In this document: positions 2,768 to 51,915 of the stretch, piece by piece | Layout of the letters: each line of letters begins with the position of its first letter | How positions within the stretch are numbered: the stretch's first letter is position 1 | From: Aureimonas jatrophae | Lineage (GTDB): Bacteria; Pseudomonadota; Alphaproteobacteria; Rhizobiales; Rhizobiaceae | Reading direction: 5' to 3' | DNA: 64,000 nucleotides | Assembly: GCF_900104035.1 (NCBI RefSeq) | Contig: NZ_FNIT01000004.1 | Location: 248,001-312,000 of the forward strand | The notes under the pieces: generated by a model | Database searches by the model: none | Told to the model about the DNA's origin: nothing | Seen by the model: only the letters and a program-made list of their open reading frames with translations | Made by a program: the position numbers and the translations under genes

Positions 2768-3682
2768 TCAGCGGCGGACCACCCCGTTTGTTTCGGCGAC
2801 GATGTCCGCCAGCATGGGCACGAAGCTGTCCCCTCGCCCCAACCCTTCCGCCAGGGCGTAGCTGTTCTTGACCGCGCTGGAGACATGGGTCGCGATGCCG
2901 TACGCGTTGGCCAGGTCCACGAGGTAGCGCGTGTCCTTGTGCGCGTTGCGCAGCGTGAACAGGTGCGCGTTCGCGTCCCCGCCCACGACGTACTGCATGA
3001 AGGTCTGGTAGAAGGGGCAGTCCATGCGACCGCCGCCGATCACCTCGTGAAAGGTCTCGGCCGACACGCCGCTTTTCGCGCCGATCGCCAGCGCCTCGGC
3101 ATAAAGGGCGCCGTATCCGAGCGACAGGAAGTTGTTCAGGAGCTTCATCGTGTGGCCGGAACCCGTCGGTCCGGTATGGAGGATGCGGCCGGCGAAGGTC
3201 TCGATCAGCGGGCGCAGCGTCTCGAGATCGGCCGGCTCGGCTCCCACCATGCAGTCCACCGTGCCGGCCCAGGCTTCCTTGGGCGTGCGGCTGAGGGGAG
3301 CGTCGATGAACGTCGCGCCCCGCGCCTTGGCCAGCTCCGCCAGACGGCGTGTCGAGACCGGCTGGCTGGTGGAGCTGTCCAGGATGACCAGGCCCGGCCG
3401 GGCATGGGCGAGGAGCCCATTCTCGCCGGCGACGACCTCCTCGACCTGCGGCGAGCCCGGCAGGCACAGGCAGACGACGTCGCAGCTCTCCGACAGCTCC
3501 AGCGGCGATCCCACCTCCACCGCACCGCGCCGGACCATGTCCTCGGCCGCCTCGCGCCGCCGGTTGGCGAGAAAGCGCAAGGGGTAGCCCGCCTCGCGGA
3601 TGTTCTTGGCCAGCCCGTGGCCCATGTAGCCCAGACCGATGAAGCCGATCGTCTGGTCTCGCTCGCGCGGCTCGGTTGCCAT
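2768..3682 (-). CDS. NAD-binding beta-hydroxyacid dehydrogenase (HIBADH/GarR/LtnD family)
   Basis: The 304-residue protein has the family's Rossmann motif GFIGLGYMG (residues 13-21), a DAPLS substrate-binding segment near 128, and the catalytic lysine K180 in GHTMKLLNN. Members oxidise beta-hydroxyacids or reduce tartronate semialdehyde; LtnD acts on L-threonate. It is the last gene of a minus-strand operon that carries a sugar importer, an SDR and, upstream, denD. A role in four-carbon sugar-acid oxidation is therefore plausible but inferred, since no OtnK/OtnC/OtnI homologues are present nearby. The ATG at 3682 begins 36 bases after the permease stop. Confidence 0.8.
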   Translation of the reverse strand: MATEPRERDQTIGFIGLGYMGHGLAKNIREAGYPLRFLANRRREAAEDMVRRGAVEVGSPLELSESCDVVCLCLPGSPQVEEVVAGENGLLAHARPGLVILDSSTSQPVSTRRLAELAKARGATFIDAPLSRTPKEAWAGTVDCMVGAEPADLETLRPLIETFAGRILHTGPTGSGHTMKLLNNFLSLGYGALYAEALAIGAKSGVSAETFHEVIGGGRMDCPFYQTFMQYVVGGDANAHLFTLRNAHKDTRYLVDLANAYGIATHVSSAVKNSYALAEGLGRGDSFVPMLADIVAETNGVVRR

Positions 3683-12381: not shown

Positions 12382-13605
12382 ATGGATCTGGGTGAAGCGG
12401 CGGCGCTGGCGGAACATCCCTCGATCGTGGTCGTGGGAGATCTCGTGGAGGGCTGGCCGCCGCACGGCTTCGACGACCGGACCCTGGCCGAGCGCGCAAA
12501 CCAATGGCCGGAGCGGCTGTCGCGCGAGCCGTTCCGGCCCGACGACAGCGGCGAGGGAACGGGCGAACCGGTCCGCGTCGTGGGCGGCTATCTCGAGCGG
12601 TTGCCGCTCGCCTGCATCGCGGCCGGCCTCGTGCGGCACGGGGAGGTCTGGCACCACAGCCGCGCCGCCGACGCGCCGCCGCTGCGACGCGACGGTTCGG
12701 GTCTCGGACGCCGCGTGTTCCGGGTCGACGCGGAGGCGGCTCCCTTCGCCTCGCAGGACATGCTGCGCTTCATTCAGGCCGCGGGCGCACCGCACATTCT
12801 CGTGGTTCTGGGGCTGGGGGTCGACGAGCGGATCCTCGCCGCCTGCCGGAACAGCTTCAAGGTCTACAACTCGATCGACGCGCCGGCGCTGCGCGTCCCG
12901 CCCGAGGTCAGCCGCCACTTCGATCTCGTGCTCACCGGCGCGCCGTGGCAGTCCGACGAGGTCGAGCGGCGTCATCCGGGCCTGCGGACCGCGGTCATGC
13001 CGATCGGGCCGGAGTTCGCCGACGATGCGACCTTTCGTCCGTTGGGCGGCGAGAAGCCCTACGACGTCGTCTATGTCGCAGCCGCGCAACCCTACAAGCG
13101 CCACGACATCCTGTTCGACGCGCTCGCCAGCGCGCCGCGCCCTTTGAGAGCCTTATGCGTCATCGGCTACGGCGAGATGGGCGAGGACCTGCGCCGGCAG
13201 GCCGCCGAGCGCGAGCTGCACGTCGACTTCGTGGGGCCGCCGGGCGTCCCGTTCGCCGAGGTCAACCGGCTGATGAACCTGGCGAAAATCGGCGTCGTCT
13301 GCGGCGTGGACGACGGCGCGCCGGCGATCCTCACCGAGTACATGCTCGCCGGCCTGCCGGTTCTGGCCAACGAGCGGCTTGCCTGCGGCCTTCAGTTCAT
13401 CACCGCGGAGACCGGCCGGACCGCTTCCGCCGAGCGCTTCGGATCCGCGATCATCGAGATGCTGGACGCGCTCCCCCGGTTTCGGCCCCGGGATGTCGCC
13501 ATGGCGCACTGGACCTGGCCTCATACGGTTCGCCATTTTCAGTCGCTGCTACGGGAATTCAACGGCGACCGTCATCGCATCGCGCCGCGACATGTGCTCG
13601 GCTAG
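12382..13605 (+). CDS. Glycosyltransferase family 4-like protein
   Basis: A 407-residue protein with GT-B architecture. The N-terminal half ends with LVLTGAPWQSDEVERRHPG, and the C-terminal half has VYVAAAQPYKRHDILFDAL and the donor-site segment GAPAILTEYMLAGLPVLAN, equivalent to the E-x7-E region of GT4 enzymes. It should transfer a sugar from a nucleotide donor in the cytoplasm. The first ~90 residues are not typical of GT4. It opens the plus-strand glycan cluster and is followed after 29 bases by the GT4-mutase fusion. The donor and acceptor are unknown. Confidence 0.75.
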   Translation: MDLGEAAALAEHPSIVVVGDLVEGWPPHGFDDRTLAERANQWPERLSREPFRPDDSGEGTGEPVRVVGGYLERLPLACIAAGLVRHGEVWHHSRAADAPPLRRDGSGLGRRVFRVDAEAAPFASQDMLRFIQAAGAPHILVVLGLGVDERILAACRNSFKVYNSIDAPALRVPPEVSRHFDLVLTGAPWQSDEVERRHPGLRTAVMPIGPEFADDATFRPLGGEKPYDVVYVAAAQPYKRHDILFDALASAPRPLRALCVIGYGEMGEDLRRQAAERELHVDFVGPPGVPFAEVNRLMNLAKIGVVCGVDDGAPAILTEYMLAGLPVLANERLACGLQFITAETGRTASAERFGSAIIEMLDALPRFRPRDVAMAHWTWPHTVRHFQSLLREFNGDRHRIAPRHVLG

Positions 13606-13634
13606 TCGGGTTGCGATGGTGTAAAGGGACGGGC

Positions 13635-16040
13635 ATGACGCTGGAGTTTCCTGGAGCTGCCGGCGCCCCGGCGGCAAGGTTCGGCGATGCCCTGAAGGCG
13701 CCTCACGACGAGGCGCCGATCATCTGCTTCTCGCACCTGCGCTGGGATTTCGTGACCCAGCGGCCACAGCATCTGATGCGGCGCTTCGCGCGCGACCGGA
13801 AGGTGTTCTTCTTCGAGGAGTTCATCCCCTGCGATCACCCGCTGCCGTTTCTGGAGTTCCACCCCTTCGCGCAGGACGGCGTCATCGCCCTGCGGCCGCG
13901 CCTGCCGCACTGGTGGAGCGTCGAGGAGCGCGAGGCGGGACTGGCGCAGCTTCTGGCCATGCTCGTCGAGACCGCCACCACGGCGGCGCCGGTTCTGTGG
14001 TTCTACACGCCGATGATGTTCGCCTTTGCGGGCGAGGTGGACGCGGCGGCTGTGGTCTACGACTGCATGGACGAGCTCACCGGCTTCCGCTTTGCCGACC
14101 CGCGCCTCGTCGAGCTTGAAACCCGGCTGATCGCCCGGGCCGACGCGGTGTTCACCGGCGGGTGGAGCCTGTTCGAGGCCAAGCGCCACCGCCATGGCAA
14201 CATCCACCCCTTCCCGTCCGCCGTGGACGGCGCTCATTTCGGCGCGGCCCGCGAGCCGGGGCTCGCCGTGCCCGCCGACCAGGCGGGCCTGCCGGGGCCG
14301 GTGCTCGGCTTCTACGGGGTGATCGACGAGCGCCTCGATCTCGATCTCCTGCGCGACGCCGCAGCGCTGCGGCCCGGCTGGAGCTTCGTCCTGCTCGGGC
14401 CGGTCGCCAAGATCGACCCGGCCGAGCTGCCGCGCGCCGCCAACATCCACTGGCTGGGCGCCAAGGGCTACGGCGAGCTTCCCGCCTATCTCGCGGGCTG
14501 GGACGTGGCGCTGATGCCCTTCGCGCTGAACGAGGCGACGCGTTTCATCAGCCCCACCAAGACCCCGGAATACCTCGCCGGCGGGCGACCGGTCGTGTCC
14601 ACCGCGATCACCGACGTGGTGCGCCACTACGGCGCGCTGGACGGCGTGCGGATCGCGCGCGATGCGGCGGGCTTCGTGGAGGCCTGCGAGGCGGCGCTCG
14701 CGCTCGGGCGCACCGGCGCCTGGCTGCAACAGGCCGACGCCCTTCTCGCCGACATCTCCTGGGACACCACCCAGCACCGCATGGCCGCGATCCTCGGCGA
14801 GGCGGTGCTGGCGGCGCGCCTTGCGGCGACGCGGGCGGCCAACGACGAGGCCCCTTCGATGCCCGCGGTCGGCGGCGCGGCGCGGCGCGAGCGCTTCGAT
14901 GCGCTCGTCGTGGGCGCGGGCTTCGCCGGTGCGGTTCTGGCCGAGCGGCTCGCGGCGGAGGCGGGGCAGCGCGTCCTCGTGATCGACCGCCGCGACCACG
15001 TCGCCGGCAACGCCTTCGACCACCACGACGCGGCGGGCGTCCTGGTTCACCGCTACGGCCCGCACATCTTCCACACCAACAGCCAGCGCGTCGTCGACTA
15101 CCTCTCGCGCTTCACCGAATGGCGCCCCTACGAGCACCGCGTCGTGGCGAGCGTCGGCGCGCAGCTCCTGCCGATCCCGATCAACCGCACGACGCTGAAC
15201 ACCCTCTACGGCCTCGACCTCGCCAGCGACGCCGAGGCCGAGCGCTTCCTTGCGCAGCGCGCGGAGCCGGTGGCCGAGATCCGCACGGCGGAGGACGTCG
15301 TGGTTTCGGCGGTCGGGCGCGAACTCTACGAGACCTTCTTTCGCGGCTACACGCGCAAGCAGTGGGGCCTCGATCCCTCGCAGCTCGACCCGTCCGTCAC
15401 GGCGCGCGTGCCCACGCGTACCAACACCGACGACCGCTATTTCCTGGACCGCTTCCAGGCCATGCCCGCGCAGGGCTACACCGCCCTGTTCGAGCGGATG
15501 CTGGCCCATCCGAACATCACCGTGCGGACCGGCATGGACTATCGCGCCGTCCGCGATCGGGTCGAGGTGCGCCACACCGTCTTCACCGGGCCGGTGGACG
15601 AGTTCTTCGACCACCGCTTCGGCCGGCTTCCCTATCGCAGCCTCGCCTTCCGGCACGAGACGCACGAGCGCTCCCAGTTCCAGCCCGTCGCGGTGGTGAA
15701 CTATCCCGACGGCGCGGTGCCCCATACCCGGATCACCGAGTACAAGCACCTGACCGGGCAGCGGCACCCGAAGACCAGCATCTCCTACGAGATCCCGTCC
15801 GACGAGGGCGAGCCCTACTATCCGGTGCCGCGCGAGGAGAGCCGCGCGCTCTACCGGCGCTACGAGGCGCTGGCCAACGCGACGCCGGACGTCAGCTTCG
15901 TCGGTCGTCTGGCGACCTATCGCTACTACAACATGGACCAGGTGGTGGCCCAGGCGCTGACGACGTTCGACCGCATGGGACGTCGCCCGGCCCGGAGCGG
16001 CATCGCCACGTCCGGCGCGGCGGCCGGACCCGCGATTTGA
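13635..16040 (+). CDS. glf: Fusion protein: GT4 glycosyltransferase and UDP-galactopyranose mutase
   Basis: The 801-residue protein has two enzymes. Residues about 30-400 form a GT4-like glycosyltransferase (ICFSHLRWDFVTQRPQHLM; RFISPTKTPEYLAGGRPVV). Residues about 420-790 form a complete flavin-dependent UDP-galactopyranose mutase: FAD site VVGAGFAGAVLAE, RYGPHIFHTN, and the YTRKQWGLDPSQL segment. The mutase makes UDP-galactofuranose, so the attached transferase may use it directly. The ATG at 13635 follows GGGAC weakly, but the FSHLRWDF start is normal for this GT group. The stop overlaps a TTG start of the next gene. Galactofuranose incorporation into a surface glycan is the simplest reading. 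Confidence 0.88.
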   Translation: MTLEFPGAAGAPAARFGDALKAPHDEAPIICFSHLRWDFVTQRPQHLMRRFARDRKVFFFEEFIPCDHPLPFLEFHPFAQDGVIALRPRLPHWWSVEEREAGLAQLLAMLVETATTAAPVLWFYTPMMFAFAGEVDAAAVVYDCMDELTGFRFADPRLVELETRLIARADAVFTGGWSLFEAKRHRHGNIHPFPSAVDGAHFGAAREPGLAVPADQAGLPGPVLGFYGVIDERLDLDLLRDAAALRPGWSFVLLGPVAKIDPAELPRAANIHWLGAKGYGELPAYLAGWDVALMPFALNEATRFISPTKTPEYLAGGRPVVSTAITDVVRHYGALDGVRIARDAAGFVEACEAALALGRTGAWLQQADALLADISWDTTQHRMAAILGEAVLAARLAATRAANDEAPSMPAVGGAARRERFDALVVGAGFAGAVLAERLAAEAGQRVLVIDRRDHVAGNAFDHHDAAGVLVHRYGPHIFHTNSQRVVDYLSRFTEWRPYEHRVVASVGAQLLPIPINRTTLNTLYGLDLASDAEAERFLAQRAEPVAEIRTAEDVVVSAVGRELYETFFRGYTRKQWGLDPSQLDPSVTARVPTRTNTDDRYFLDRFQAMPAQGYTALFERMLAHPNITVRTGMDYRAVRDRVEVRHTVFTGPVDEFFDHRFGRLPYRSLAFRHETHERSQFQPVAVVNYPDGAVPHTRITEYKHLTGQRHPKTSISYEIPSDEGEPYYPVPREESRALYRRYEALANATPDVSFVGRLATYRYYNMDQVVAQALTTFDRMGRRPARSGIATSGAAAGPAI

Positions 16041-19000
16041 GCCGCGCCGGCCGGACCCGACCCCGCCCTCGCCTGCTTCTTGCCACCGACAGCCTCGTGC
16101 CCTCGGGCGTGGGCGCGCACATGCTGACGCTGGCGCGGGCGCTCGCCGTGGACTGGGACGTGGCGATCGCCGCGGACCCGCGCGGTGGATTGGGGCGGCG
16201 CGCGCTGCGCGAGAACCTCGCCGCGATCGACATCGACGCCGACGACCCTTCCTCGATCGAGGCGGCGCTGCGTCGCTGGCGCCCCGACATCCTCCACGTC
16301 CATGCCGGCATCGGCTGGGAGGGGCACGAACTCGCCGCGACCGGCCGGGCGGCCGGCGTCGCCACGGTCCTGCGCACCGAGCATCTGCCCTTCGTTCTGA
16401 CCGACCCTGCCCAGATCGCCGCCCATCGCCAGGCCGTGCGCGACCTCGACGCGCTGGTCTGCGTGTCGCGCACCGCCGCCGACAGCTTCGTTGCGGCAGG
16501 CATCGATCCGGCCCGGATCCACGCGATCGCGAACGGCGTCGATCCGAGCCCGCCGCTCCGCGAGCGCGCCGCCGTCCGGCACGACCTCGGCCTCCCATCG
16601 GACGCGACGGCGCTTCTCGTGGTCGCGCGGATGACCGAGCAGAAGGGTCACGGCGTTCTTCTGGATGCGCTGGCCGGCCTGCGCGAGCGGCATCCGGACC
16701 TCGTCTGCCTGCTGGCGGGCGACGGCCCTCTGCGCGCCACGCTCCAGGATCGGGCAGGCGCGATCGGCCTCGGCCGAACGGTGCGCTTCCTGGGCGAGCG
16801 CGACGACGTCGCGGACCTCATGGCGGCCGCCGACTGCCTGGTCCTGCCCTCGCTCTTCGAGGGGTTGCCGCTCGTGGTGCTGGAGGCGATGGCCGCCGGA
16901 CTGCCGGTGGTCGCGACCCGCATCGGCGGCACGAGCGAGGCGGTCGAGGACAACGGCACCGGCTGGCTGGCGGAACCGGGCGATGCCGCCTCGCTGCGCG
17001 AGACGCTGGCCCTCGCCCTGGCGGACCGCGCGGAACTGGCTCGCGCCGGCCAGGCAGGACGGATCCGCTTCGAGACGACGTTTCGGGCAGCCGACATGGC
17101 GGCGGCGACCGCCGCGCTCTACGGCCGGCTCGCCCCCTTCCCCCAACGCGAAACACGGAACAGCAGCATGAAGACCATCCGGATCGGCTTTGTCGGCGCC
17201 GGCGGCATCGCCCACCGCCACCTCGGCATCTTGGAGGGTTTCGAGGACGTCGCGATCGTCGGCTTCGCGGATCCGGACCGGGGGCGCGCCGAGGACGCCG
17301 CGGCGCGCTTCGGCGCCCGAGCCTTCGACAGCGCCGCCGCCCTGATGGACAGCTGCGAGCTCGATGCCGTCTATATCTGCGTGCCGCCCTTCGCCCATGG
17401 CGGGCCCGAGCGCGAGGCGATCGCGCGGGGGCTGCCCTTCTTCGTGGAGAAGCCGGTCTCGCTCGACATCGCGACCGCCGAAGCGATCGCCGCCGAGGTG
17501 GCGCGCAAGAACCTCGTCACCGCCGTCGGCTACCATTGGCGCTATCTCGACACGGTGGACGAGGCGCGCGCGCTGCTCGCCGACAATCCGCCGCAGCTCC
17601 TGTCGGGCTACTGGCTGGACTCGACGCCGCCGCCGCAATGGTGGTGGCGCGAGGACCAGTCGGGCGGCCAGATGGTGGAGCAGGCGACGCATCTTCTCGA
17701 CCTCGCCCGCTTTCTGGTGGGCGAGGTGAGCGAGGTCTACGGCCGCGCGGCGCACCGCGATCGCGAGGCCTTTCCCGGTCTCGACGTTCCGACCACCTCG
17801 ACCGCCAGCCTGACGTTTGCGAACGGCGTCGTCGCCAACATCGCCTCGACCTGCCTTCTCGGCTGGAACCACCGCGTCGGCCTTCACATCTTCGCCGACC
17901 GGCTGGCGATCGAGCTGACGGACCGCGACATCATGGTGGACGTCGGACGCGGGCGGCCGATGCGCGGCGCCGACGGCGATCCGGTCTGGCGCGAGGATCG
18001 CGACTTCATCGACGCGGTCGCGGGCGGCGAGAACCGCATCCGCTGCCCCTACGCCGACGCGCTCGCGACGCACCGCCTCGCGCTGGCCGTGGTGCAGTCG
18101 GCGCGCACCGGCGAGGTCGTGCATCTCCAGCCCGACACCGCTCCGCGCGCGGCGCCCGCGCCGCTTCGCTTCCCGCCACGGCCGGAGCCGGGGCAGCTGC
18201 CGCCCGGCCATCGGCACGTGCGATCGCTCGGCATCGAGCGGCCGGGCGAGGCCTACCACTTCCAGTACGAGGAGGGACCTCCGGGCGAGGGACAGGTGCG
18301 CCTCGACACGCTGTATTCCGGCTTCTCGGCCGGCACCGAGCTGACCTTCTTCAAGAACACCAACCCTTATCTCCATTCGCGCTGGGACGGCGGGCGGGGC
18401 GTCTTCGTTCCGGGCGAGGCCGGGCAGCACTTTCCGGTGCCGTTCCTTGGATACATGGAGGTGGCGCGCGTCACGGAATCCCGCGCCCCCGGGTACAAGG
18501 CCGGCGAGATCGTCGCCTCGACCTATGCCCACAAGAGCGGCCACACGGCCGACCCGTTCCACGATCTTCTGGTGAAGCTGCCGGAGGGCGTCGATCCGAT
18601 GCTCGGTATCTACGTCGCGCAGATGGGTCCGATCGCCGCCAACGGCATCCTCCATGCCGACGCGGAACTGGCGGGCGGCCATGTCGAACGGCTGGGGCAG
18701 GGGGTCGCCGGGCGTCCGGTGCTAGTCATCGGCGGCGGCGTGGTGGGTCTTCTGACGGCGCTGTTCGCCGCCCGGGCGGGGGCCGGCGAGGTGGTCGTCG
18801 CCGATCCCTCGCCCTTCCGGCGCGCGCGCATCGAGGCGCTCGGTTTTACGGCGATGGGCGAGGACCAGGCCTGGAACCACGCCAAGGCGAACTGGCACCA
18901 CGGGGGCGGCGATCGGGGCGCGGACTTCGTGTTCCAGACGCGCGCGGACGCGCGCAGCCTCCACGCCGCGCTTCGCGCGCTTCGCCCGCAGGGCACCGTC

Positions 19001-19300
19001 ATTGATCTCGCCTTCTACCAGGGCGGGGCGGAGCCGCTGCGCCTGGGCGAGGAGTTCCATCACAACGGACTGGCGATCCGCTGCGCGCAGATCAACCGGG
19101 TGCCGCGAGGTCTCGGCTTCGAATGGAACCGCCGGCGGCTTGCGGCCGAGACGATCGGGCTTCTCCAGGCACGCGGGCGCGACATCGCCGAGCACATGAT
19201 CACCCACGTCGTGGACTTCGAGGACGCGCCGCGCTTCCTGCGTCATCTCGTGGACGAGCGGCCGGACTTCCTGCAGGTCGTGTTCAAGGTCCGCGACTGA
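16037..19300 (+). CDS. Fusion protein: GT4 glycosyltransferase, Gfo/Idh/MocA oxidoreductase and zinc-type (MDR) dehydrogenase
   Basis: The frame is open for 1,087 residues with no stop. Residues 1-375 are a GT4 glycosyltransferase (LLLATDSLVPSGVGAHML; VVARMTEQKGHGVLLDAL; PSLFEGLPLVVLEAMAAG). Residues 378-700 are Gfo/Idh/MocA (IRIGFVGAGGIAHRHLG; VEKPVSLD). Residues about 720-1087 are an MDR dehydrogenase (VLVIGGGVVGLLTALFAA). Bi-domain oxidoreductases with both folds occur in polysaccharide loci, usually with the MDR half first; here the order is reversed. The start is a TTG overlapping the previous stop. An ATG at 17168 resembles a natural Gfo/Idh N-terminus and could also initiate a 710-residue product. 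Likely role: nucleotide-sugar modification coupled to transfer. Confidence 0.78.
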   Translation: MSRAGRTRPRPRLLLATDSLVPSGVGAHMLTLARALAVDWDVAIAADPRGGLGRRALRENLAAIDIDADDPSSIEAALRRWRPDILHVHAGIGWEGHELAATGRAAGVATVLRTEHLPFVLTDPAQIAAHRQAVRDLDALVCVSRTAADSFVAAGIDPARIHAIANGVDPSPPLRERAAVRHDLGLPSDATALLVVARMTEQKGHGVLLDALAGLRERHPDLVCLLAGDGPLRATLQDRAGAIGLGRTVRFLGERDDVADLMAAADCLVLPSLFEGLPLVVLEAMAAGLPVVATRIGGTSEAVEDNGTGWLAEPGDAASLRETLALALADRAELARAGQAGRIRFETTFRAADMAAATAALYGRLAPFPQRETRNSSMKTIRIGFVGAGGIAHRHLGILEGFEDVAIVGFADPDRGRAEDAAARFGARAFDSAAALMDSCELDAVYICVPPFAHGGPEREAIARGLPFFVEKPVSLDIATAEAIAAEVARKNLVTAVGYHWRYLDTVDEARALLADNPPQLLSGYWLDSTPPPQWWWREDQSGGQMVEQATHLLDLARFLVGEVSEVYGRAAHRDREAFPGLDVPTTSTASLTFANGVVANIASTCLLGWNHRVGLHIFADRLAIELTDRDIMVDVGRGRPMRGADGDPVWREDRDFIDAVAGGENRIRCPYADALATHRLALAVVQSARTGEVVHLQPDTAPRAAPAPLRFPPRPEPGQLPPGHRHVRSLGIERPGEAYHFQYEEGPPGEGQVRLDTLYSGFSAGTELTFFKNTNPYLHSRWDGGRGVFVPGEAGQHFPVPFLGYMEVARVTESRAPGYKAGEIVASTYAHKSGHTADPFHDLLVKLPEGVDPMLGIYVAQMGPIAANGILHADAELAGGHVERLGQGVAGRPVLVIGGGVVGLLTALFAARAGAGEVVVADPSPFRRARIEALGFTAMGEDQAWNHAKANWHHGGGDRGADFVFQTRADARSLHAALRALRPQGTVIDLAFYQGGAEPLRLGEEFHHNGLAIRCAQINRVPRGLGFEWNRRRLAAETIGLLQARGRDIAEHMITHVVDFEDAPRFLRHLVDERPDFLQVVFKVRD

Positions 19301-21549
19301 TGGCGAGCGAGGCCGGCCCGGAGCCCGTCCGCATCCTGTTCGTCTTCGCCTGGCTGGTGGTGGGCGGCGAGGAGACCGAGGTGCGCCATCTGGCGCACCA
19401 TCTCGATCCCCGGCGCTATCGCATCGACGTCGTCGCGTGCTTTCGCAAGGAAGGCATGCCCGAGCAGACCCACCAGCAGCTGGAAGCCTTGGGCGTATCG
19501 GTCGACCGCACGCCCTACACGCTCTCCTTCGAGGACACGATTAGCTATCTCGCGGGCAAGCTCGCGGGCTACGACCTCGTGGTCTCCTGCCAGAACGTCG
19601 CCGACATCTACCCCGCGCTGGAGCGGCTGCACCTGCGCCCGCCCCTGATCGAGCACGGCGGGCTCGTGTCCGAAGCGCTCGGCGGCCCCAAGCACTTCAC
19701 CAGCCGCTATGTCGGCGTCTGCCGCTCGATCCGGGATGCCGCCGCCTCGCGCATGCCGGGCCGCGAGACCTGCGCGCTGGAGATCCCGTCGACGGTCGAC
19801 CTCGCGCCCTTCGATCCGGCCGCGCGCGAGCCCACGCGCCGGGCGCTGGGCCTCTCGCCCGAGACGCCGGTGATCGGCTGGCTCGGCCGGCTCGACCCCA
19901 AGAAGCGCGTCGAGGACTTCCTGGAGGCCGCCGCCCTCGTCCGACGCACGCGCCCCGACGCGCGCTTCCTGGTGATCGGCGGTCCCGACGCCTTTCTGCC
20001 CGATTACGCGCAGGCGCTCTACGAGCGCGCCCGCGCGCTCGGGCTCGGTGACGCCGTGCGCTTCCTCGGCGACCGGGCCGACGTGCCCGAGCTTTTGGCC
20101 GCGCTCGACGTCTTCGTCTGGCTGTCGCGCGGCGAGGGGATGCCGCATGTGATCGCGGAAGCGGGCGCGGCGCGCCTGGCCGTGATCGCCACCGCCGACA
20201 ACGGTACGACCGAGCAGATCCAGGACGGCGTCAGCGGCGTCTTCGTGCCGCACGAGGACCCGCCCGCCGTCGCCCGGGCGATGCTGGCTCTGATCGACGA
20301 CCCCGCACGCCGAAGGAACCTCGGTGCCGCGCTCCGGGCCAAGGTCGAGCGCGACTACGCCGTGCCGGTCGTGGTGGCGCAGTGGGAAGCGCTGATCGAG
20401 GAGGTTCTGCGCGAGACCCGGCCCGCGCCGCACCGGCCGCAGCTCTTCCGCTCGTTCCACCAGGGGGGCTTCGAATCCTCCTCGCACCGCCGCGTGCACG
20501 ACCGGCGCCGCGTCGACATGATCGCGGCGAGCTACCACGACCGCTTCGCGCGCGAGGACTACGCCGCGCTCCAAGGCCACGGTATCCGCACCGTGCGCGA
20601 CGGCCTGCGCTGGCACCTCATCGAGCCCGAGCCCGGCCGCTCTGATTGGAGCAGCCTCCAGGCGCAGCTCCGGGCGGCGAAGGAAACCGGCACGCAGGTC
20701 GTCTGGGACATCCTTCACTACGGCTGGCCGGACGATATCGACATCTGGCGCCCCGAATTCGTGGAGCGCTTCACGCGCTTTGCCGCGCAAGCCGCGCGCG
20801 TGATCGGGGCCGAGACCGAGGGCGTGCCCTTCTACGCCCCGGTCAACGAGATTTCCTTCTTTGCCTGGGGCGGGGGCGACGCCGGCTACCTCAACCCCTT
20901 CGCGCACGGACGCGCGCACGAGCTCAAGGTGCAGCTCTCGCGCGCCGCGATTTCAGCGATGGAGGCGATCTGGCGCATCGATCCGCGCGCGCGCTTCGTG
21001 CATGCCGATCCCGTCATCAACGTCATCACCGATCCCTCGCGCCCGCACGAGGCGGCCCATGCCGAGGGGCACCGGCAGGCGCAGTTCCAGGCCTGGGACA
21101 TGCTGGCGGGCCGCGCTTGGCCGCAGATCGGCGGGCACGAGGCGCTGCTCGATATCGTCGGGGTCAACTACTACTTCAACAACCAGTGGATCCACGGCGG
21201 CCCGCCGATCGACATCGGCCATCCCCTCTACAAGCCGTTCCGCGACCTCCTGACGGAAACCTTCGCCCGCTACGGCCGTCCGATCTTCGTCGCCGAAACG
21301 GGCATCGAGGGCGACCGGCGCGCGGAGTGGCTCGCCTATGTCGAGGGCGAGGTGCGCGCCGCCATGCGCCGGGGCGTGCCGGTCGAGGGCCTGTGCCTCT
21401 ACCCCGTTCTCGACCATCCCGGCTGGGACGACGAGCGCTATTGTCCGAACGGGCTGCTGCGCTTCTCGGCCGATGCTCGCGAACGGATCGCCGATCCCGC
21501 GCTCGCCGCCGAGCTGAAGCGTCAGCGCGCGATGGAGTTCGGGGCCTGA
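19300..21549 (+). CDS. Fusion protein: GT4 glycosyltransferase and clan-A glycoside hydrolase-like domain
   Basis: A 749-residue protein. Residues 1-375 are a GT4 glycosyltransferase (VVGGEETEVRHLAHHL; GWLGRLDPKKRVEDFLEAA; SRGEGMPHVIAEAG). Residues about 383-745 are a TIM-barrel domain resembling GH1 and other clan GH-A enzymes. It keeps both carboxylates in the expected places: E517 in PVNEISFF (acid/base) and E666 in VAETGIEG (nucleophile). The ATG at 19300 overlaps the previous stop by one base. The barrel is paralogous to the next gene. No signal peptide is visible, so the hydrolase-like domain would act in the cytoplasm, perhaps in transglycosylation or trimming; this is speculation. Confidence 0.78.
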   Translation: MASEAGPEPVRILFVFAWLVVGGEETEVRHLAHHLDPRRYRIDVVACFRKEGMPEQTHQQLEALGVSVDRTPYTLSFEDTISYLAGKLAGYDLVVSCQNVADIYPALERLHLRPPLIEHGGLVSEALGGPKHFTSRYVGVCRSIRDAAASRMPGRETCALEIPSTVDLAPFDPAAREPTRRALGLSPETPVIGWLGRLDPKKRVEDFLEAAALVRRTRPDARFLVIGGPDAFLPDYAQALYERARALGLGDAVRFLGDRADVPELLAALDVFVWLSRGEGMPHVIAEAGAARLAVIATADNGTTEQIQDGVSGVFVPHEDPPAVARAMLALIDDPARRRNLGAALRAKVERDYAVPVVVAQWEALIEEVLRETRPAPHRPQLFRSFHQGGFESSSHRRVHDRRRVDMIAASYHDRFAREDYAALQGHGIRTVRDGLRWHLIEPEPGRSDWSSLQAQLRAAKETGTQVVWDILHYGWPDDIDIWRPEFVERFTRFAAQAARVIGAETEGVPFYAPVNEISFFAWGGGDAGYLNPFAHGRAHELKVQLSRAAISAMEAIWRIDPRARFVHADPVINVITDPSRPHEAAHAEGHRQAQFQAWDMLAGRAWPQIGGHEALLDIVGVNYYFNNQWIHGGPPIDIGHPLYKPFRDLLTETFARYGRPIFVAETGIEGDRRAEWLAYVEGEVRAAMRRGVPVEGLCLYPVLDHPGWDDERYCPNGLLRFSADARERIADPALAAELKRQRAMEFGA

Positions 21550-21566
21550 CGGGCGCTGCCTCGCCG

Positions 21567-22433
21567 GTGTTTCGATCCTTTCTCCAGGCGGGTTTCGAGT
21601 GCGGCCGCCTGGAATGGCAGGGAAACTTCTGCCTTCTCACCGGTACGCACCACCTGCCCGAAGCGCGCATGGCGGCGCATTACGCCATCCTCCGGGCGCA
21701 CGGAATCCGCACCGCGCGCGACGGCCTGCCGCCCTGGCTGCCGATCGAGCCGCGCCTCCGGGTCGCGCGCGAGGCGGACATGGAGGTGATCTGGGACCTC
21801 AACCACTACTGGCGCCATGCCGACCCCGAGGGTTACGCGCGGCGGGTGGCCGAGGCGGTTCTCGCGGTCGCGCCGGCCGAGACCTTCTGGTGCTGCTTCA
21901 ACGAGACGAGCTTCCATCCGCGCATGGTGCCCGGCGAAAGCACCGCCTTCGTGGTCGAGCAGGCGCGCCGTATCCTCGCGATCCTTCGCGAGCGGCTGCC
22001 CCGCCTGCGTCTCGTCACCTCCGAGCCCGCGCACCGGCCGCACGAGATCGGCGCCCATGCCTTGGCCGACACGGCCGACGTCGTCGGCATCAACGTCTAC
22101 CCGCACGACCTGCGGCGCAGCATCGCCCGCTCGCTGCGCGACGTTGCCGCGCGCTACGGCAAGCCGGTGATGATCGCCGAGACCGGCCTCCACAAGGGCC
22201 ACCCCCGCCGCTGGCGCGGGATCGACGACAAGGGCGACTGGCTGCGCCACGTCCTCGCCGAGGTGGAGCGCTCGCGCGCGCCCGTCGCAGGCGTCTGCCT
22301 CTACCCGATCGTCGACTCGCCGGCCTGGAACGCGCCGCACCGGCACCGCTGGGACCACGGGCTCATCCACGCGGACCTGACGCTCGACCCGAGCCTGTCG
22401 GCCGCCCTTCTGGAGCGCCGGGCGGCGCCGTGA
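21567..22433 (+). CDS. Stand-alone clan-A glycoside hydrolase-like protein
   Basis: A 288-residue protein homologous to the C-terminal barrel of the preceding fusion: both begin FRSF-x-QGGFE/QAGFE and share HGIRT-x-RDGL. The candidate catalytic glutamates are E113 (CFNETSF) and E205 (IAETGLHKG). It is shorter than typical GH1 enzymes (about 450 residues), so it is a minimal barrel. I chose the GTG at 21567, 18 bases after the previous stop. It is the last plus-strand gene of the glycan cluster and converges with the GHL6-like gene. The substrate is unknown. Confidence 0.7.
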   Translation: MFRSFLQAGFECGRLEWQGNFCLLTGTHHLPEARMAAHYAILRAHGIRTARDGLPPWLPIEPRLRVAREADMEVIWDLNHYWRHADPEGYARRVAEAVLAVAPAETFWCCFNETSFHPRMVPGESTAFVVEQARRILAILRERLPRLRLVTSEPAHRPHEIGAHALADTADVVGINVYPHDLRRSIARSLRDVAARYGKPVMIAETGLHKGHPRRWRGIDDKGDWLRHVLAEVERSRAPVAGVCLYPIVDSPAWNAPHRHRWDHGLIHADLTLDPSLSAALLERRAAP

Positions 22434-22493: not shown

Positions 22494-24680
22494 TCAATCG
22501 ATCACGACGACCTCGTGGTCGCGCACCGCCGGCACCTCGAAGGTCAGCTGGTCGCCGGAGCGCTCGACCTCGACCCGTGCCCCAGCGACGCGCAGGTCGG
22601 CCGGGCCGGATGCGCCGGCCGGAAGCCCGCGCAGCGCGACGCGGATCGGGCCGATCGCGACGAGCTCGCTCTGACGTCCCGGCACCCTGGCGGTGACGAG
22701 CCGGTTGTTGAGATGCAGGATCCAGCGCTCGCCCTGCCGGAAGAGCGAGGGGGTGACGAAGCCCTGCGCGCCCGCAAGTTCCACGCTCGCGCGGCCGTCC
22801 AGGCACCAGCGCACCGCGTTGGCGAGCAGTCGGGCGTGGTCGGGCGCGCCGTCGCGGGCCAGGCACCGGTCGAGATCGGCGGCGAACCAGACCAGACGGG
22901 CCGCCCCGGCCTCGCGCGCGGTGATCGCCGGAAGCTCGGTGCGCGGCCGGCGCATCCACGACGTTTCCGGCGGAAAGATCGGGAAGTCCGGTACGAAGGT
23001 CGCCAGCACCTGCGTCCCCTCGCCCGCCTCGATCTCGGGCAGGACGCCGCCGAAGGGAAGCGTATCGGCCGCCTCGAACCCGTCGAGGACCGGATGGCGG
23101 GTGCCGTCCGGTGCGGGCGCGGTCGCATCGCGCGGGCCATCAACGCCGGCGCGCAGTTCGGGCGCAAGCCGCAGGTAGGTGTGCCGCTCGCTGTCCTCGA
23201 TGCTCTCGCTGATGGGTCCCGTTCCGCCGTGGCTCGCTGTTCCTCGCCGGCGGATGCCGAACAAGGCGCCGAGCGCGAAGTCGGCGCGCGCATCCCCCTC
23301 GGCCGTGAGCCCGCTCGTCTCGCCGGTCGCGATCACCGATCCGCCGTCGGCTGCGAAGCGTTCGACCGCCGCCACCTGCCGGTCCGACAGGACGCCGAGA
23401 TTGGGCAGGAGAAGCACGCGGAACCGCCCCGCCGCCGCCTCGACGTCCTCGGCATGGACGGGCAGCCAGGCGAGCCCGGCCCGATGGAGCGCCTCCGCCG
23501 CGCCGCGATAGGGATCGAGCGTCCGCTCCTCGGCCTCGGCTCCCCCGTGGAGATCGTGGTTCTCCTGCGACCAGACCACGCCGACATCGGCGACCGGCTG
23601 CCGGTCGACCAGATAGCGTTCGTTCTCGGCATGCCAGCGGAAGATCGGCGCGGCGGTTTGGTACTGACGACGGTCCTCGTGCAGCGCGCCGATGTGGTGC
23701 CACCAGGGCTGGATGCCGCCGGCGAACCCGGCCGACGACCAAAGGCGCACCTCGGCCTCCGGCATCGAGGACAGGCGGAAGGCCGGCTGGCCGAGCTGGT
23801 ATTGCGGCGTCGACTCGGGGATCAGGACGTCCCAGCCCGCGAGCTCGTGGAGGCGCCGTCCCGCCTCGGTATTCTGCTCGAAACCGTCAACGGCGCTGCG
23901 TCGCTGGTGGTCGAGCATCACGATGCGCGAGCGCTGGAGAATGGCGCGCAGATCGATGAAGCGGGCGCCATTGTTGAGGACGTCGCCGCTGATCATGCCG
24001 TTCCAAAGACAGTGCTCGCCGCCGGCCTCGGTGGTGACCCGGTTGTTGTGCTCCCAGAGGCGCGTGCGGCAGCGGTAGTTCCACCTGATCCAGGCGCGAT
24101 AGGTCTCGCTCGCCGGATCGTGCCGCTCGGGCAGCGCGTGGCCGGTCTCGGCGTCGAAGCCGTCGCGGCAGTTTTGGCAGTGGCAGATGTGCCGGCGCGG
24201 GAGGCCGGCCCAGCTGTTGTCGGCAAAGCCGTCGGGCGACGAGCGCTCGACGATCTCGCGCATCACGGCCGGCAGGTGGTCGCGGTAGTAGCCCGAGTTG
24301 ATGCAGGTGACGTACTTGTCACCCTGCCGGTAGGGCTCGCTCGCCGCATCGCGGCAGATCCAGTCGGGATGGGCCTCGAAGAGGTCGGCCGCCACGCGGT
24401 TGGAGTCCATGCGCGCGACCACGGCGAGACCCTCCTCGCGGGCGGCCCGCACGATCTCGCCGTAGAGGTCGCGGGCACCCAGGCGCTCGGCGCGGTGATG
24501 GTGGGGAACGGCGGACGGGTAGTAGGCGACGATCCCGCCCGCGTTCACGATCGCGCCCTGGACACGCGTCCGGCGCCAGTGATTCCTCCACCACTCGGCG
24601 TCGTAGCGCTCCGGGTCGATCTCCACGAGGTTGGTCTGACCCCAGCGCAGGGTCCGTCGGTACCAGGGTCGGTTGTCCAT
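22494..24680 (-). CDS. Putative glycoside hydrolase (GHL6-like barrel with beta-galactosidase-type trimerisation domain)
   Basis: The 728-residue protein begins WYRRTLRWGQTNLVEIDPERYD, as in the hypothetical glycosyl hydrolase 6 group, with a TIM-barrel core (GIVAYYPSAVPHHHRAERLG; DGFADNSWAG followed by CHCQNCRDGF). A GH42-like trimerisation or amidotransferase-like domain follows around 390-600 (RVLLLPNLGVLSDRQVAAVERF; GGSVIATGETSG), and a small beta domain closes it. There is no signal peptide. It lies 128 bases downstream of the Dpp-type ATPase gene on the same strand and may be cotranscribed. Catalytic residues cannot be assigned with certainty. Confidence 0.65.
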   Translation of the reverse strand: MDNRPWYRRTLRWGQTNLVEIDPERYDAEWWRNHWRRTRVQGAIVNAGGIVAYYPSAVPHHHRAERLGARDLYGEIVRAAREEGLAVVARMDSNRVAADLFEAHPDWICRDAASEPYRQGDKYVTCINSGYYRDHLPAVMREIVERSSPDGFADNSWAGLPRRHICHCQNCRDGFDAETGHALPERHDPASETYRAWIRWNYRCRTRLWEHNNRVTTEAGGEHCLWNGMISGDVLNNGARFIDLRAILQRSRIVMLDHQRRSAVDGFEQNTEAGRRLHELAGWDVLIPESTPQYQLGQPAFRLSSMPEAEVRLWSSAGFAGGIQPWWHHIGALHEDRRQYQTAAPIFRWHAENERYLVDRQPVADVGVVWSQENHDLHGGAEAEERTLDPYRGAAEALHRAGLAWLPVHAEDVEAAAGRFRVLLLPNLGVLSDRQVAAVERFAADGGSVIATGETSGLTAEGDARADFALGALFGIRRRGTASHGGTGPISESIEDSERHTYLRLAPELRAGVDGPRDATAPAPDGTRHPVLDGFEAADTLPFGGVLPEIEAGEGTQVLATFVPDFPIFPPETSWMRRPRTELPAITAREAGAARLVWFAADLDRCLARDGAPDHARLLANAVRWCLDGRASVELAGAQGFVTPSLFRQGERWILHLNNRLVTARVPGRQSELVAIGPIRVALRGLPAGASGPADLRVAGARVEVERSGDQLTFEVPAVRDHEVVVID

Positions 24681-38602: not shown

Positions 38603-40984
38603 TCAGGCTCCCGGCAGCGGCGCGTCGGCCATGGCGGGGCTGCGGCGCAGCGCCTCGACCTCCGCGCCGCTCAGCTGCAGGATCGCTTCCAGGACATGGC
38701 GGTTGTGGGCGCCGAAGGCCGGCGCCGCGCGGCGATGCGCGCCGGGCGTGCGGCTGAGCCGGATCGGCAGGCCGGGATGGGCGTGCGCCCCGGCGTCGGG
38801 ATGCTCCAGCCGCGTGAAGAAGCCGCGATGGGCGAGATAGGCGCTTTCCGACAGGTCGCGCGGCGTCTGGACGGGCGCGGCCGGAACGCCGGCCGCCTGA
38901 AGCGCTTCCGCGATCGCGTGCTTGTCGCGCGTCTGCGTCCAGCGGCGCAGGATGGCGTCGATCTCGTCGCGGCGCTCCAGACGGTCGGGCAGGGTCGCAA
39001 AGCGCGGGTCGGCCGCGAGCGCCGGGCCGCCGACGACGCGGGCGAGCGCCTGCCATTCCCGGTCGTCGCGGGCGGCCATCACCACCCACTGGTCCTCGCC
39101 GGCCGCCGGATAGGCCTCGTGCGGAACGGCCGTGGGCACGCGGTTGCCGTCCGGCACGGGGTCCGTGCCGTTCTCGATCGCGGCCAGGATCTGGGGTCCG
39201 ACGACCTGCATGGCCGCCTCGACCTGCGGCACCTCGACATGCTGCCCCTCCCCCGTGCGCGCCCGGTGGTTGAGCGCGACGAGAATGGCGACCGCCGCGT
39301 TGAAGCCGCCGATCGGGTCGAGATAGGAAGGCCCCGTGGTCTCGGGCTGCCCGTCGCGATAGCCGATCATGCCCGACATGCCGGCCGCCATCTCCATCGT
39401 GGGCCCGAGCGCGGCGTAGCGCGACATCGGTCCCTCCAACCCGTAGGCGGGAAGCTCGGCGACGATGATGTCGGGCTTGATCGCGCGCAACGCCTCGTAG
39501 CCGAGGCCGAGACGGTCCAGCGTGCCAGGCCGGAAGTTGCAGATCAGCACATCCGCCTTTTCCACGAGGCGGCGCAGCGTTGCGCGACCACCCTCGTCCT
39601 TGAGGTTCAGGATGCAGGACAGCTTGTCGACGTTCTGCGAGTTGAACAGGAAGGCACGGTCGAAGGGGCGCTCGCCCGGCTCTCCGCCGGGAAAGTTCAC
39701 GGGGTTGGGCACCTCCTTGTTGAGGCGCCACGAGTTCACCCGGTTGGGCGACTCGATATGGATGCTTTCCGCCCCCAGGAAGCCGAGCACGCGTCCTGCC
39801 ATCGGCCCGGCCCAGGCGGTCGTGATCTCCAGAACCCGCAAGCCGGCCAGCGGACGGGACGCGGCGAGCCCCGAGGCGGTCTCCGGCGCCGTCACGAACC
39901 GGGACGCGGGCAGCGCGTCGGCGTCGTTCGCGCCCGGCGCCGGCTCGGGGGCGACCGGACCGCGCGGGGTGCGCGACAAGCGGAAGGGTGCACCGAGGGC
40001 GATCCCGTTCCCGGTGCGCTCCCAGTAGCCGCGCGCGGCCAGGTGGCCGCTTTGCGCCAGCTCGCTCGGGCGATAGGCCTTGGCGGCGATCACCTCCTCG
40101 CGCTGCAGCGCCGCGACCACGGCCTCGGCCTCACGGTCGGCCACGGTGTCCTGGATCAAGGCGAAGAGTTCGGCCCAGTGGCGCCGGCGCTCGAGCGGCT
40201 CGCTGAAGCGCGGATCGGTCTCCAGCGCCCCGAGGCCGAGCGCGCGGCAGACGGCCGCCCAGCGATGGTTGTAGATCCAGATGCAGACCCAGCCGTCGCG
40301 GCACAGGACCTGACCGGCGGGAATGTTGGGATCGAGGCGGCTCTTGACCGTGCCGTTGTAGTTGTACTGAAGCACGTAGGGAAAGCACATCGCGGCGGCC
40401 GTTTCGGCCTCGTCGACGCGCACGCCCTGCCCGAGCCCCGTCGCCCCCCGCGCCAGAAGCGCCGCCAGGACCCCGGCCGCGCCCGCAAGGCCCGCCGCAA
40501 AGGACGCGCGGTTGCCGCAGCCGTAGAGCGGCTCGCGGCCGAAGGCGCCGTTGTTGTGCATCATGCCCGACAGCGCCTGGAGCACGATCTCGGGCCCTTT
40601 CCAGTCCCGCAGCGGACCGTCGGAGCCGAACGGGCTGAGGCGCAGCGCCACGGCCTGCGGGTTGCAGCGCTCCACCTCGTCCTCGCGACCGTCGGCAGGC
40701 AGAACCACGACGTCGGCGCGGCGATACCAGTCCCGCAGCATCGCCTGCCGCGCGTCCGGGTCGGCCGGCAGCCGGCGCGACCGCTTGCCGGTGTTGAGGT
40801 GGCGAAACACCAGCGAAACGCCGTCGCGCGTGCGAAACGGCGCCAGGCGCCGCGTCGCCGAACCGTCCGCCGGCTCCAGAAGCGTCACGTCGGCGCCGAA
40901 GTCGCCCAGAAGGCGGGCGCAGTACTGGCCGGCGATCGCCTCCGACAGGTCGGCGACGACGAGGCCTTGCAAAGCCGATCTCAA
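38603..40984 (-). CDS. Tandem CaiB/BaiF family (class III) CoA-transferase
   Basis: About 793 residues containing two CaiB/BaiF domains in one chain. The first begins LQGLVVADLSEAIAGQYCARLLGDFGAD, and the second begins near residue 380 with LAGLRVLEITTAWAGPMAGRVLGFLGAE. The second half keeps the catalytic aspartate region (SYLDPIGGFNAAVAIL), while the equivalent place in the first half reads NRASFAAGLAG without an aspartate, so only one active site may work. I chose a TTG at 40984 preceded by GGGAGGAG; a TTG at 41035 would add 17 residues. Class III enzymes move CoA between carboxylic acids. It is divergent from the LacI gene with a shared palindrome. Confidence 0.83.
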   Translation of the reverse strand: MRSALQGLVVADLSEAIAGQYCARLLGDFGADVTLLEPADGSATRRLAPFRTRDGVSLVFRHLNTGKRSRRLPADPDARQAMLRDWYRRADVVVLPADGREDEVERCNPQAVALRLSPFGSDGPLRDWKGPEIVLQALSGMMHNNGAFGREPLYGCGNRASFAAGLAGAAGVLAALLARGATGLGQGVRVDEAETAAAMCFPYVLQYNYNGTVKSRLDPNIPAGQVLCRDGWVCIWIYNHRWAAVCRALGLGALETDPRFSEPLERRRHWAELFALIQDTVADREAEAVVAALQREEVIAAKAYRPSELAQSGHLAARGYWERTGNGIALGAPFRLSRTPRGPVAPEPAPGANDADALPASRFVTAPETASGLAASRPLAGLRVLEITTAWAGPMAGRVLGFLGAESIHIESPNRVNSWRLNKEVPNPVNFPGGEPGERPFDRAFLFNSQNVDKLSCILNLKDEGGRATLRRLVEKADVLICNFRPGTLDRLGLGYEALRAIKPDIIVAELPAYGLEGPMSRYAALGPTMEMAAGMSGMIGYRDGQPETTGPSYLDPIGGFNAAVAILVALNHRARTGEGQHVEVPQVEAAMQVVGPQILAAIENGTDPVPDGNRVPTAVPHEAYPAAGEDQWVVMAARDDREWQALARVVGGPALAADPRFATLPDRLERRDEIDAILRRWTQTRDKHAIAEALQAAGVPAAPVQTPRDLSESAYLAHRGFFTRLEHPDAGAHAHPGLPIRLSRTPGAHRRAAPAFGAHNRHVLEAILQLSGAEVEALRRSPAMADAPLPGA

Positions 40985-41093
40985 CTGCTCCTCCCGGGTC
41001 GTGTCTTGGGGAACGGTCCGCGCAGGCCGGGCCAAGCCGCAAGCCGCCGAACGCCGTCGCGCTGGATCGCTCCCTCGATCAGGCTATGCAGGT

Positions 41094-51308: not shown

Positions 51309-51743
51309 TCAGTCGCAGGCCTGGACGAAGGCCGCGACGTTGCCGCTGCCCCCTTGCGCGACGTCGGCCGCGCAGCCGCGCCCGACCTGGACCCCGGCCG
51401 CGATGTTGCCGTTGCCGTCCTGCGTGAGGATCGTCGTGTGGTTGGAGCCGAACTGGCCGATACCCGCCACGTTGCGGTTGCCGGTCTGGTAGGTCGCACC
51501 GGTGTTGTCGGCACCCTGCTGGCCGACGGCCGACAGGTTCCGGTCGCCGCGCTGGTGCCCGACCAGACGGTTGCCCCGCCCGTCCTGCTGGACGCGGATG
51601 CGGTTGCGGTAGCCGTTCTGCGCGCCGCCGGCCGAGTTGCCCCAGCCGTACTGGTCGATGCGCACGTCGTTGGCGGAGGCCGGCGCGGCGGAGGCGAGGC
51701 CGGCCAGGGCGATCAGGGCGGCGGCAAGGGGCATGCGGACCAT
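51309..51743 (-). CDS. Curlin-repeat protein (major curlin, CsgA-like candidate)
   Basis: A 144-residue protein with a signal peptide (LAAALIALAGLASAAPASA) and then ten consecutive units of exactly 11 residues, each starting QxG and mostly QxGxxN (QYGWGNSAGGA, QNGYRNRIRVQ, QDGRGNRLVGH and so on to QGGSGNVAAFV), ending QACD. A curlin amyloid core is expected. Two cysteines near the end (QVGRGC, QACD) are unusual for curlins. It heads the three-gene unit, preceded by GGAG eight bases before the ATG. No csgD, csgE, csgF or csgG homologue lies in the window. Confidence 0.85.
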   Translation of the reverse strand: MVRMPLAAALIALAGLASAAPASANDVRIDQYGWGNSAGGAQNGYRNRIRVQQDGRGNRLVGHQRGDRNLSAVGQQGADNTGATYQTGNRNVAGIGQFGSNHTTILTQDGNGNIAAGVQVGRGCAADVAQGGSGNVAAFVQACD

Positions 51744-51915
51744 GGGAGCGTCTCCGGCGGGAGCCATGCGGCTCGGGTTGAACGCACCCTTTGTGGGCCC
51801 CGGCGCCGGAACCTGCGCTGAAGGGGCCGTTCAGTCGTCGTTCACGCGCCCGGCCGCACCGCGAGGCACCCAAATCGCGCGCCGCGCGTTCCCCGTCCTC
51901 TCAACGGAGGCGGAC

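Follow-up and report, generated by a model that had tools for sequence, protein, structure and literature searches.

An operon of fused GT4 glycosyltransferases in Aureimonas jatrophae, a candidate galactofuranose-dependent glycoconjugate pathway with relatives in several bacterial groups

Known bacterial galactofuranose pathways include the pamABCDE galactan locus of Kingella (PMC12269835) and mycobacterial GlfT1 and GlfT2 (PMC10951656). The operon studied in this work is located at positions 12382-22433 of the window, which is the whole 64,000-nucleotide stretch of Aureimonas jatrophae DNA that was analysed (contig NZ_FNIT01000004.1, positions 248,001 to 312,000; genome of 4.59 Mb). The operon and the galactofuranose pathways (Glf, or UDP-galactopyranose mutase (UGM), with a galactofuranosyltransferase) have in common a UGM for the furanose donor and a set of glycosyltransferases (GTs). 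The operon family differs from those pathways by a UGM fused to a GT4-type GT, a constant GH1-like barrel, an EcfG promoter motif in many alphaproteobacterial members, and a fused form without a dedicated exporter. On balance, and with modest confidence, we read the operon as an expanded, fused form of a conserved galactofuranose-dependent glycoconjugate pathway that is part of the general stress response in many Alphaproteobacteria. The domain content, the fusion series, the linkage, the UGM co-occurrence, the enrichment of the promoter motif, and the exporter split that bear on this reading were computed.

The operon consists of five genes on the same strand (+), and the domains assigned with Pfam and NCBIfam are in frame and without stops. 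The start codons of g1 to g5 are our own choice. Gene g1 (12382-13605, +) encodes a stand-alone GT4-type GT of 407 amino acids (PF00534, 1.6e-11; PF13692, 1.6e-9). Gene g2 (13635-16040, +; 801 amino acids) encodes a TuaH-like GT4 domain at about residues 1-400 (78.6 bits with the NCBIfam TuaH model, far under the cut-off of 550) that is fused to UGM. Gene g3 (16037-19300, +; 1087 amino acids, TTG start) encodes a triple fusion of GT4, Gfo/Idh/MocA, and MDR (zinc-ADH-like) domains (Pfam PF00534, 2e-41; PF01408, 1.4e-22; PF22725, 5.4e-15; PF00107, 5.3e-11). Gene g4 (19300-21549, +; 749 amino acids) encodes a GT4 domain (PF00534, 2.6e-32) fused to a GH1-like barrel of the clan GH-A type at about 20431-21546. 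Gene g5 (about 21567-22433, +; 288 amino acids, GTG start) encodes a second, divergent GH1-like barrel. The C-terminal nucleotide-sugar domain of GT4 (PF00534 and/or PF13692) scores above cut-off in g1 to g4.

Genes g1 and g2 are separated by 29 nucleotides, g2 and g3 overlap by 4, g3 and g4 share one (TGATG), and g4 and g5 are separated by 17. The five genes are likely to form a single transcript. The first-pass annotation of this DNA had described genes that overlap or abut, which agrees with the measured overlaps and with gaps of at most 29 nucleotides. It had also described four GT4 genes and three fusions (with UGM, with a Gfo/Idh plus MDR pair, and with a hydrolase-like barrel). The four genes and the three fusions stand, and the end coordinate given there also spans the fifth gene, g5, that was left undescribed. 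No stop or frameshift between domains was found in g1 to g5, and the fusions recur in public genomes. The same set of g1, GT-UGM, GT-Gfo-MDR, and GT-barrel proteins is present in 15/80 public-genome loci. These loci, to which all counts out of 80 refer, are the best 80 of at least 585 genome stretches encoding a barrel relative, and near relatives are over-represented among them. The same fused set is also found on a Rhizobium plasmid and in R. leguminosarum WSM1325. The g4 homologues of six further Aureimonas genomes are 80-94% identical across nearly the whole length. The model of full-length g4 has a pLDDT of 87.9 and a pTM of 0.83. By hydropathy, none of the five proteins has an N terminus that stands out as hydrophobic, and the highest 19-residue mean (2.15) is located in the MDR part of g3. 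The five enzymes are therefore taken to be cytoplasmic.

The UGM domain of g2 matches TIGR00031 at the equivalog level (378 bits, cut-off 304). Its nearest solved relative is 3hdq (545 bits, next best 307), which we take to be the UGM of Deinococcus radiodurans. The active-site region is conserved between the two. The enzyme of 3hdq stands alone whereas the UGM of g2 is a C-terminal domain. D. radiodurans is named among the solved UGMs in a published account (PMC7662398). The g2 domain is the only UGM match in the window genome. Across 151 genomes, UGM is present in all 14 genomes with a strong barrel match (at least 398 bits, own genome included) and in 16 of the 137 without one (Fisher 7e-12, ignoring relatedness). 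Clusters that lack UGM and keep the GT occur in genomes that have exactly one UGM, outside the cluster (9/9 genomes counted), whereas a second UGM is present in only one of the 39 genomes with UGM-keeping clusters (Fisher 6e-9, relatedness again ignored). Twelve UGM-less loci entered this comparison and nine genomes were counted. The Devosia metagenome-assembled genomes (MAGs) L100 and L106 matched (one partly) and were excluded, and so were L054 (a plasmid record, silent on its genome), G164 (a contig-cut cluster), and G161 (a duplicate of G010).

The UGM found outside these clusters was considered as a relocated fused domain and this was rejected, with 41-49% identity to the fused domain (9/9) against 63-69% for 9/10 UGMs of unfused clusters. 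The remaining unfused-cluster UGM, from Chryseobacterium, is 47% identical. Only UGM relatives of less than 60% identity were found in the phage collection. The possible galactofuranose product that had been proposed in the first-pass annotation gains genetic support from the tight linkage of UGM.

The g4 barrel and g5 have no Pfam family at E 0.001, so that the PF00232 signature is absent. The sole NCBIfam match in the g4 barrel is GH35, at 23.6 bits against a cut-off of 500. The profile of 17 barrel relatives matches GH1-type beta-glucosidases in the PDB, with a family 1 glycosidase as the top match (2e-17). The AlphaFold2 model of the g4 barrel (44 sequences) has a pLDDT of 93.7 and a pTM of 0.92. 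The 50 rows listed by Foldseek for this model are GH1-type (best E 8e-19, query TM-score 0.71-0.80, identity 14-21%). Residues N139-E140 and E289 are invariant in the 17 and in the 44 aligned sequences, and R56, H96, Y248, and W332 are likewise invariant in the 44. N139-E140 follows strand 4 and E289 is located within strand 7 of the model (strands E134-138 and E285-290). This residue set agrees with what a functional clan GH-A retaining glycosidase would be expected to have. The GH1 motifs NEP and TENG read NEI and AETG in the barrel, and the C-terminal part that binds pyranose O4/O6 in GH1 reads GWDD.

In its predicted structure, the barrel has the fold of a GH1-like retaining glycosidase, and both glutamates of the catalytic type are present. 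It shares the fold and the two glutamates with GH1 and clan GH-A, and is filed as GH1-like and not as GH1 because no Pfam family matches. The first-pass annotation had proposed that each fused partner makes or alters the sugar of its transferase. Making a sugar donor does not fit the barrel, which resembles a retaining glycosidase. The g5 protein is 28% identical to the g4 barrel (E 8e-27), is shorter, and has the NE and ETG motifs. On plasmids of Paracoccus, Aureimonas, Rhizobium, and Roseomonas, relatives of g5 occur without the cluster; in L026 and Devosia L092 they are located next to it. The cluster-free relatives on the plasmids of Paracoccus yeei, Aureimonas AU20, and Roseomonas (L022, L023, and L025) are labelled GH53, hypothetical protein, or arabinogalactan galactosidase. 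Ku/LigD or a Crp-type regulator is encoded near those of L022 and L023.

The g2-type GT is present in 74/80 barrel loci and UGM in 65/80, with ten loci that have the GT without UGM. The six GT-less loci (L076, L109, L112, L116, L123, and L131) are mostly short or cut. A g1 homologue is present in 46/80 loci. The unfused core of GT4, UGM, and barrel is linked in Alpha-, Beta-, and Gammaproteobacteria, Deinococcota, Cyanobacteria, Acidobacteriota, and Bacteroidota. This unfused trio was found in Pseudomonas/Stutzerimonas, Azospirillaceae, Mesorhizobium, a Burkholderiales MAG, an Acidobacteria MAG, Microcoleus, Deinococcus sp. QL22, and Chryseobacterium. The core is located on plasmids in Deinococcus sp. 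QL22, Chryseobacterium, Azospirillum, Mesorhizobium, and Skermanella, and the g4 barrel matches 142 plasmid records. In Caballeronia, a GH1-like domain fused to a RmlD-type reductase (L052:8896-11121) adjoins UGM and GT. In Microcoleus vaginatus, a GH1-like-RmlD fusion (L121:16903-19155), GH2, and galT are encoded near UGM and GT. In the Deinococcus plasmid loci L043, L049, and L050, the barrel is accompanied by no matching GT or UGM. The barrels of L043:9887-12136 and L049:8920-11292 are fused to an acyl-CoA dehydrogenase-like domain; a PIG-L deacetylase and a SAM methyltransferase are encoded nearby, with no UGM in view.

The GT and UGM of g2 are fused in 41/80 loci, and the GT and barrel of g4 in 50/80. 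The g3 protein is wholly fused in 24/80 loci, and only its GT and Gfo parts are fused in 17/80. Devosia, Oryzicola, and Tianweitania encode GT, Gfo/Idh, and MDR separately, in adjacent genes that follow the domain order of g3. The Sphingomonas-type loci, 2/4 Paracoccus loci, and Kaistia have a GT-Gfo fusion plus MDR. All three parts are fused in most loci of Rhizobium, Sinorhizobium, and Agrobacterium and in every Aureimonas locus seen. The homologues run from separate but linked genes to full fusion, and separate, unlinked domains are not the rule.

The tree of 104 barrels (quick LG+G4, unrooted, with some long branches flagged) excludes L028, L030, and L032 (same genomes as L056, L057, and L095), L131, and rows with fewer than 300 aligned residues or less than 200 bits. 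All 59 GT-barrel rows that it counts fall in one clade of 63 rows (SH-aLRT 97), alongside four unfused rows (two Phyllobacterium and two Devosia MAGs). The minimum number of changes on this tree is three for the GT-barrel fusion, at least seven for the g3 states, and at least 11 for the GT/UGM state. With an unrooted tree, the direction in which fusions were gained or lost is one that we infer. In Rhizobium sp. CFBP 8762 (L059), a single open frame of 1223 codons spans g1, GT, and UGM and may be a still larger fusion.

The EcfG promoter motif has been reported as GGAAC-N16-CGTT (PMC3892343) or GGAAC-N17-20-GTT (PMC6599016). The motif GGAAC-N16-18-GTT was found within 300 bp upstream of the first gene in 30/73 alphaproteobacterial clusters, compared with 62/919 other open reading frames of the same loci (Fisher 1e-14) and 0/24 non-alphaproteobacterial clusters. 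Its spacing is N17 in 20 clusters, N18 in eight, and N16 in two, while any other spacing from 6 to 30 was found zero to two times. A wider pattern was found in 32/100 clusters, whereas 200 shuffled sets gave 3 on average and 8 at most. DUF892 is encoded near 16/80 loci and a long catalase near 8/80; these neighbours were called by clustering, with one representative of each checked by Pfam. Genome-wide DUF892 counts from 20 genomes, some of them picked for DUF892 near their clusters, and catalase counts from six genomes do not enter these figures. Ku/LigD is encoded near the cluster of Paracoccus AK26, and the neighbours of the R. leguminosarum WSM1325 cluster include ImuA/Y-family polymerase, DUF2231, and ferritin-like genes. 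Part of the family, 30 of the 73 alphaproteobacterial clusters, resembles the EcfG/RpoE2 regulon in promoter motif and spacing, and some members have DUF892, catalase, or Ku/LigD neighbours; the window operon lacks the motif. EcfG-dependent, overlapping GT genes with a reporter-tested promoter have been reported in Sphingomonas melonis Fr1 (transcripts 3505-3509; PMC6599016). That run might be related to this cluster. The word galactopyranose is absent from the main text of the EcfG-regulon reports searched.

An ABC exporter is linked to 25/45 unfused-barrel loci and to 0/59 GT-barrel loci. The exporter was called by 570-601 aligned residues at 56-100% identity to one of two queries. It is a single half-transporter, nearest to MsbA-type models among the matches listed and under all their cut-offs. 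A homologue of this exporter located elsewhere was considered as the route of the fused form and was rejected. The best match in the window genome has 41% identity. Among 15 fused-cluster genomes, one has a match at 48%, 12 have matches at 36-41%, and two have none at E 1e-90, compared with 64-69% in three exporter-bearing control genomes. The exporter split therefore suggests that the unfused pathway probably moves its product over the inner membrane and that the fused form changed that step. The first-pass annotation had left export open. This reading has changed, as an MsbA-type exporter is often linked to the unfused form and is absent from the fused one. The interpretation given there is supported in part: its fusions stand, its galactofuranose reading gains genetic support, and the role it gave to the barrel is revised as well.

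The catalytic steps and their order, the product, and the acceptor are what we infer from this gene content, and induction by stress in the window strain would likewise follow by analogy with relatives. UGM would convert UDP-galactopyranose into UDP-galactofuranose in the cytoplasm. The GT4 domain fused to UGM would then use UDP-galactofuranose as a donor. Further sugars may be added by g1 and by the GT4 domains of g3 and g4, with one sugar oxidised or reduced by the Gfo/Idh-MDR pair. The cytoplasmic GH1-like barrel may trim, edit, or re-transfer a sugar on the growing product. The product of the unfused form would be taken through the membrane by the MsbA-like ABC exporter. In the fused form the exporter would have been lost, and the product may take another route or be kept inside.

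Several findings weigh against this reading. No EcfG motif is present in the 800 bp upstream of the window operon, even with one mismatch, and the neighbours of this operon are catabolic and not stress genes. The perfect motif was found in 1/8 Aureimonas loci (L057), and none of the 12 Sphingomonas-type loci is among the 30 clusters with the motif. No galactofuranosyltransferase is recognised by family, as the GT4 domains of g1 to g4 are generic. The pattern of UGM loss rests on six changes of the tree and only three independent pairs with good support. Nearly always, all of these go the way expected, but they are too few for a sign test. An amine-oxidase-type flavoprotein is present in place of UGM in Pantoea eucrina, where a single plasmid-encoded protein of 1242 amino acids (L046:8992-12720) consists of barrel, g2-type GT, and this flavoprotein. 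Methylomagnum also has a GT-amine oxidase fusion (L048:2395-5019), plus GH2, galT, and galK. UGM is also absent near the barrel in the three Deinococcus plasmid loci, two of which have the acyl-CoA dehydrogenase-like fusion. UGM is therefore replaced or absent in some members, and galactofuranose need not be made by all. Domains or junctions are in separate or broken frames at L061, L069, L087, and L092, possibly through decay, assembly error, or real separation.

The locus could also be an ordinary accessory locus for surface polysaccharide or a lipopolysaccharide (LPS) side chain, which we regard as rather unlikely. Four GTs would make a short galactofuranose branch, the usual export of the cell would carry it, and the fusions would be a by-product of tight packing. 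GT4s, UGM, and Gfo/Idh enzymes are usual in surface-polysaccharide and LPS loci. The fused clade without its own exporter is consistent with this explanation, and so are the at least seven changes of the g3 state, as expected if fusion is easy. However, Wzx/Wzy or Wzm/Wzt loci have a flippase and polymerase or an exporter pair, which none of the other window proteins scanned provides, and many unfused relatives have the single MsbA-type half-transporter instead. No initiating transferase, Wzx, Wzy, or Wzm/Wzt family was found among the 42 other window proteins scanned, which were taken from a simple codon-composition script that may miss genes. The absence of a polymerase, flippase, or ABC exporter that was noted in the first pass holds for these 42 proteins, and the ABC transporter parts among them are importer types. 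The constant member of the family is a retaining-glycosidase fold without an evident export signal, and the promoter motif and some of the neighbours point to stress.

If the product is not exported at all, it could be a soluble intracellular glycoside, a protectant similar to a compatible solute, that stays in the cytoplasm and is recycled by the barrel after stress. The absence of an exporter from all 59 fused loci, with no close homologue in the 15 fused-cluster genomes checked, favours this explanation. It is also consistent with the EcfG motif upstream and with five proteins that lack an evident N-terminal hydrophobic stretch. However, the MsbA-type exporter near 25 of the 45 unfused loci suggests that at least the unfused form sends its product across the membrane, and we consider an intracellular glycoside distinctly unlikely.

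It is very unlikely that the substrate of the flavoprotein is a different sugar nucleotide or compound and that the pathway does not involve galactofuranose. The amine-oxidase-type substitutes in Pantoea and Methylomagnum and the two Deinococcus barrels fused to an acyl-CoA dehydrogenase-like domain are in favour of it. However, the UGM domain scores above the equivalog cut-off with a conserved active-site region, UGM-less clusters are located in genomes with another UGM, and galT or galK neighbours are found (galT near the core in Microcoleus, both genes in Methylomagnum). Finally, chance open reading frames, sequence errors, or non-functional read-through are an extremely improbable source of the fusions, for although some homologues are split and the in-frame ATG at 17168, the GT/Gfo junction of g3, could permit a separate Gfo-MDR product, the fusions are no sequencing artefact because the 15 public loci share the architecture, and the nearly full-length Aureimonas g4 homologues and the confident g4 model argue in the same direction.

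The galactofuranose-dependent glycoconjugate pathway that we favour is composed of known kinds of parts, namely galactofuranose pathways, GT4s, GH1 folds, and the EcfG response. Among the open-access literature matches listed, we recognised neither this combination nor the constant GH1-like partner, the fusion series, or the stress motif. None of these matches is recognisable as a paper on the GT4-UGM fusion or on this cluster. If the reading is true, it provides a functional proposal, an often stress-wired glycan, for a family of at least 585 barrel-encoding stretches. The hosts of this family are, judging by their names, plant-associated, airborne, radiation-resistant, and soil-crust bacteria. 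The graded fusion series would allow a test, within a single system, of why the enzymes of a pathway become fused, and the constant GH1-like partner would point to a glycosidase fold inside a biosynthetic pathway. A wider picture is tentative and may well be wrong. It would be an unrecognised, horizontally spread stress pathway of at least seven bacterial groups that makes a galactofuranose glycolipid or glycoside against drying, radiation, or oxidation. A GH1-like enzyme would have moved from a degradative role to one in synthesis or proof-reading, and the repeated welding of transferases to partner enzymes would form a natural series of assembly-line stages.

The genes that flank the operon were considered as part of the system and no reason for this was found. 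They are mainly catabolic, transport, and regulatory genes (Opp-type transporter, GHL6, Ldh_2, GntR, UxuA, and LysR). The protein encoded at 22494-24680 (-; 728 amino acids) has a GHL6 putative glycosyl hydrolase domain and adjoins the Opp-type ABC transporter. The protein encoded at 38603-41035 (-; 810 amino acids) has two CoA-transferase family III stretches in a single chain. The protein encoded at 51309-51767 (-; 152 amino acids) has a curlin-associated repeat and is possibly an amyloid fibre subunit.

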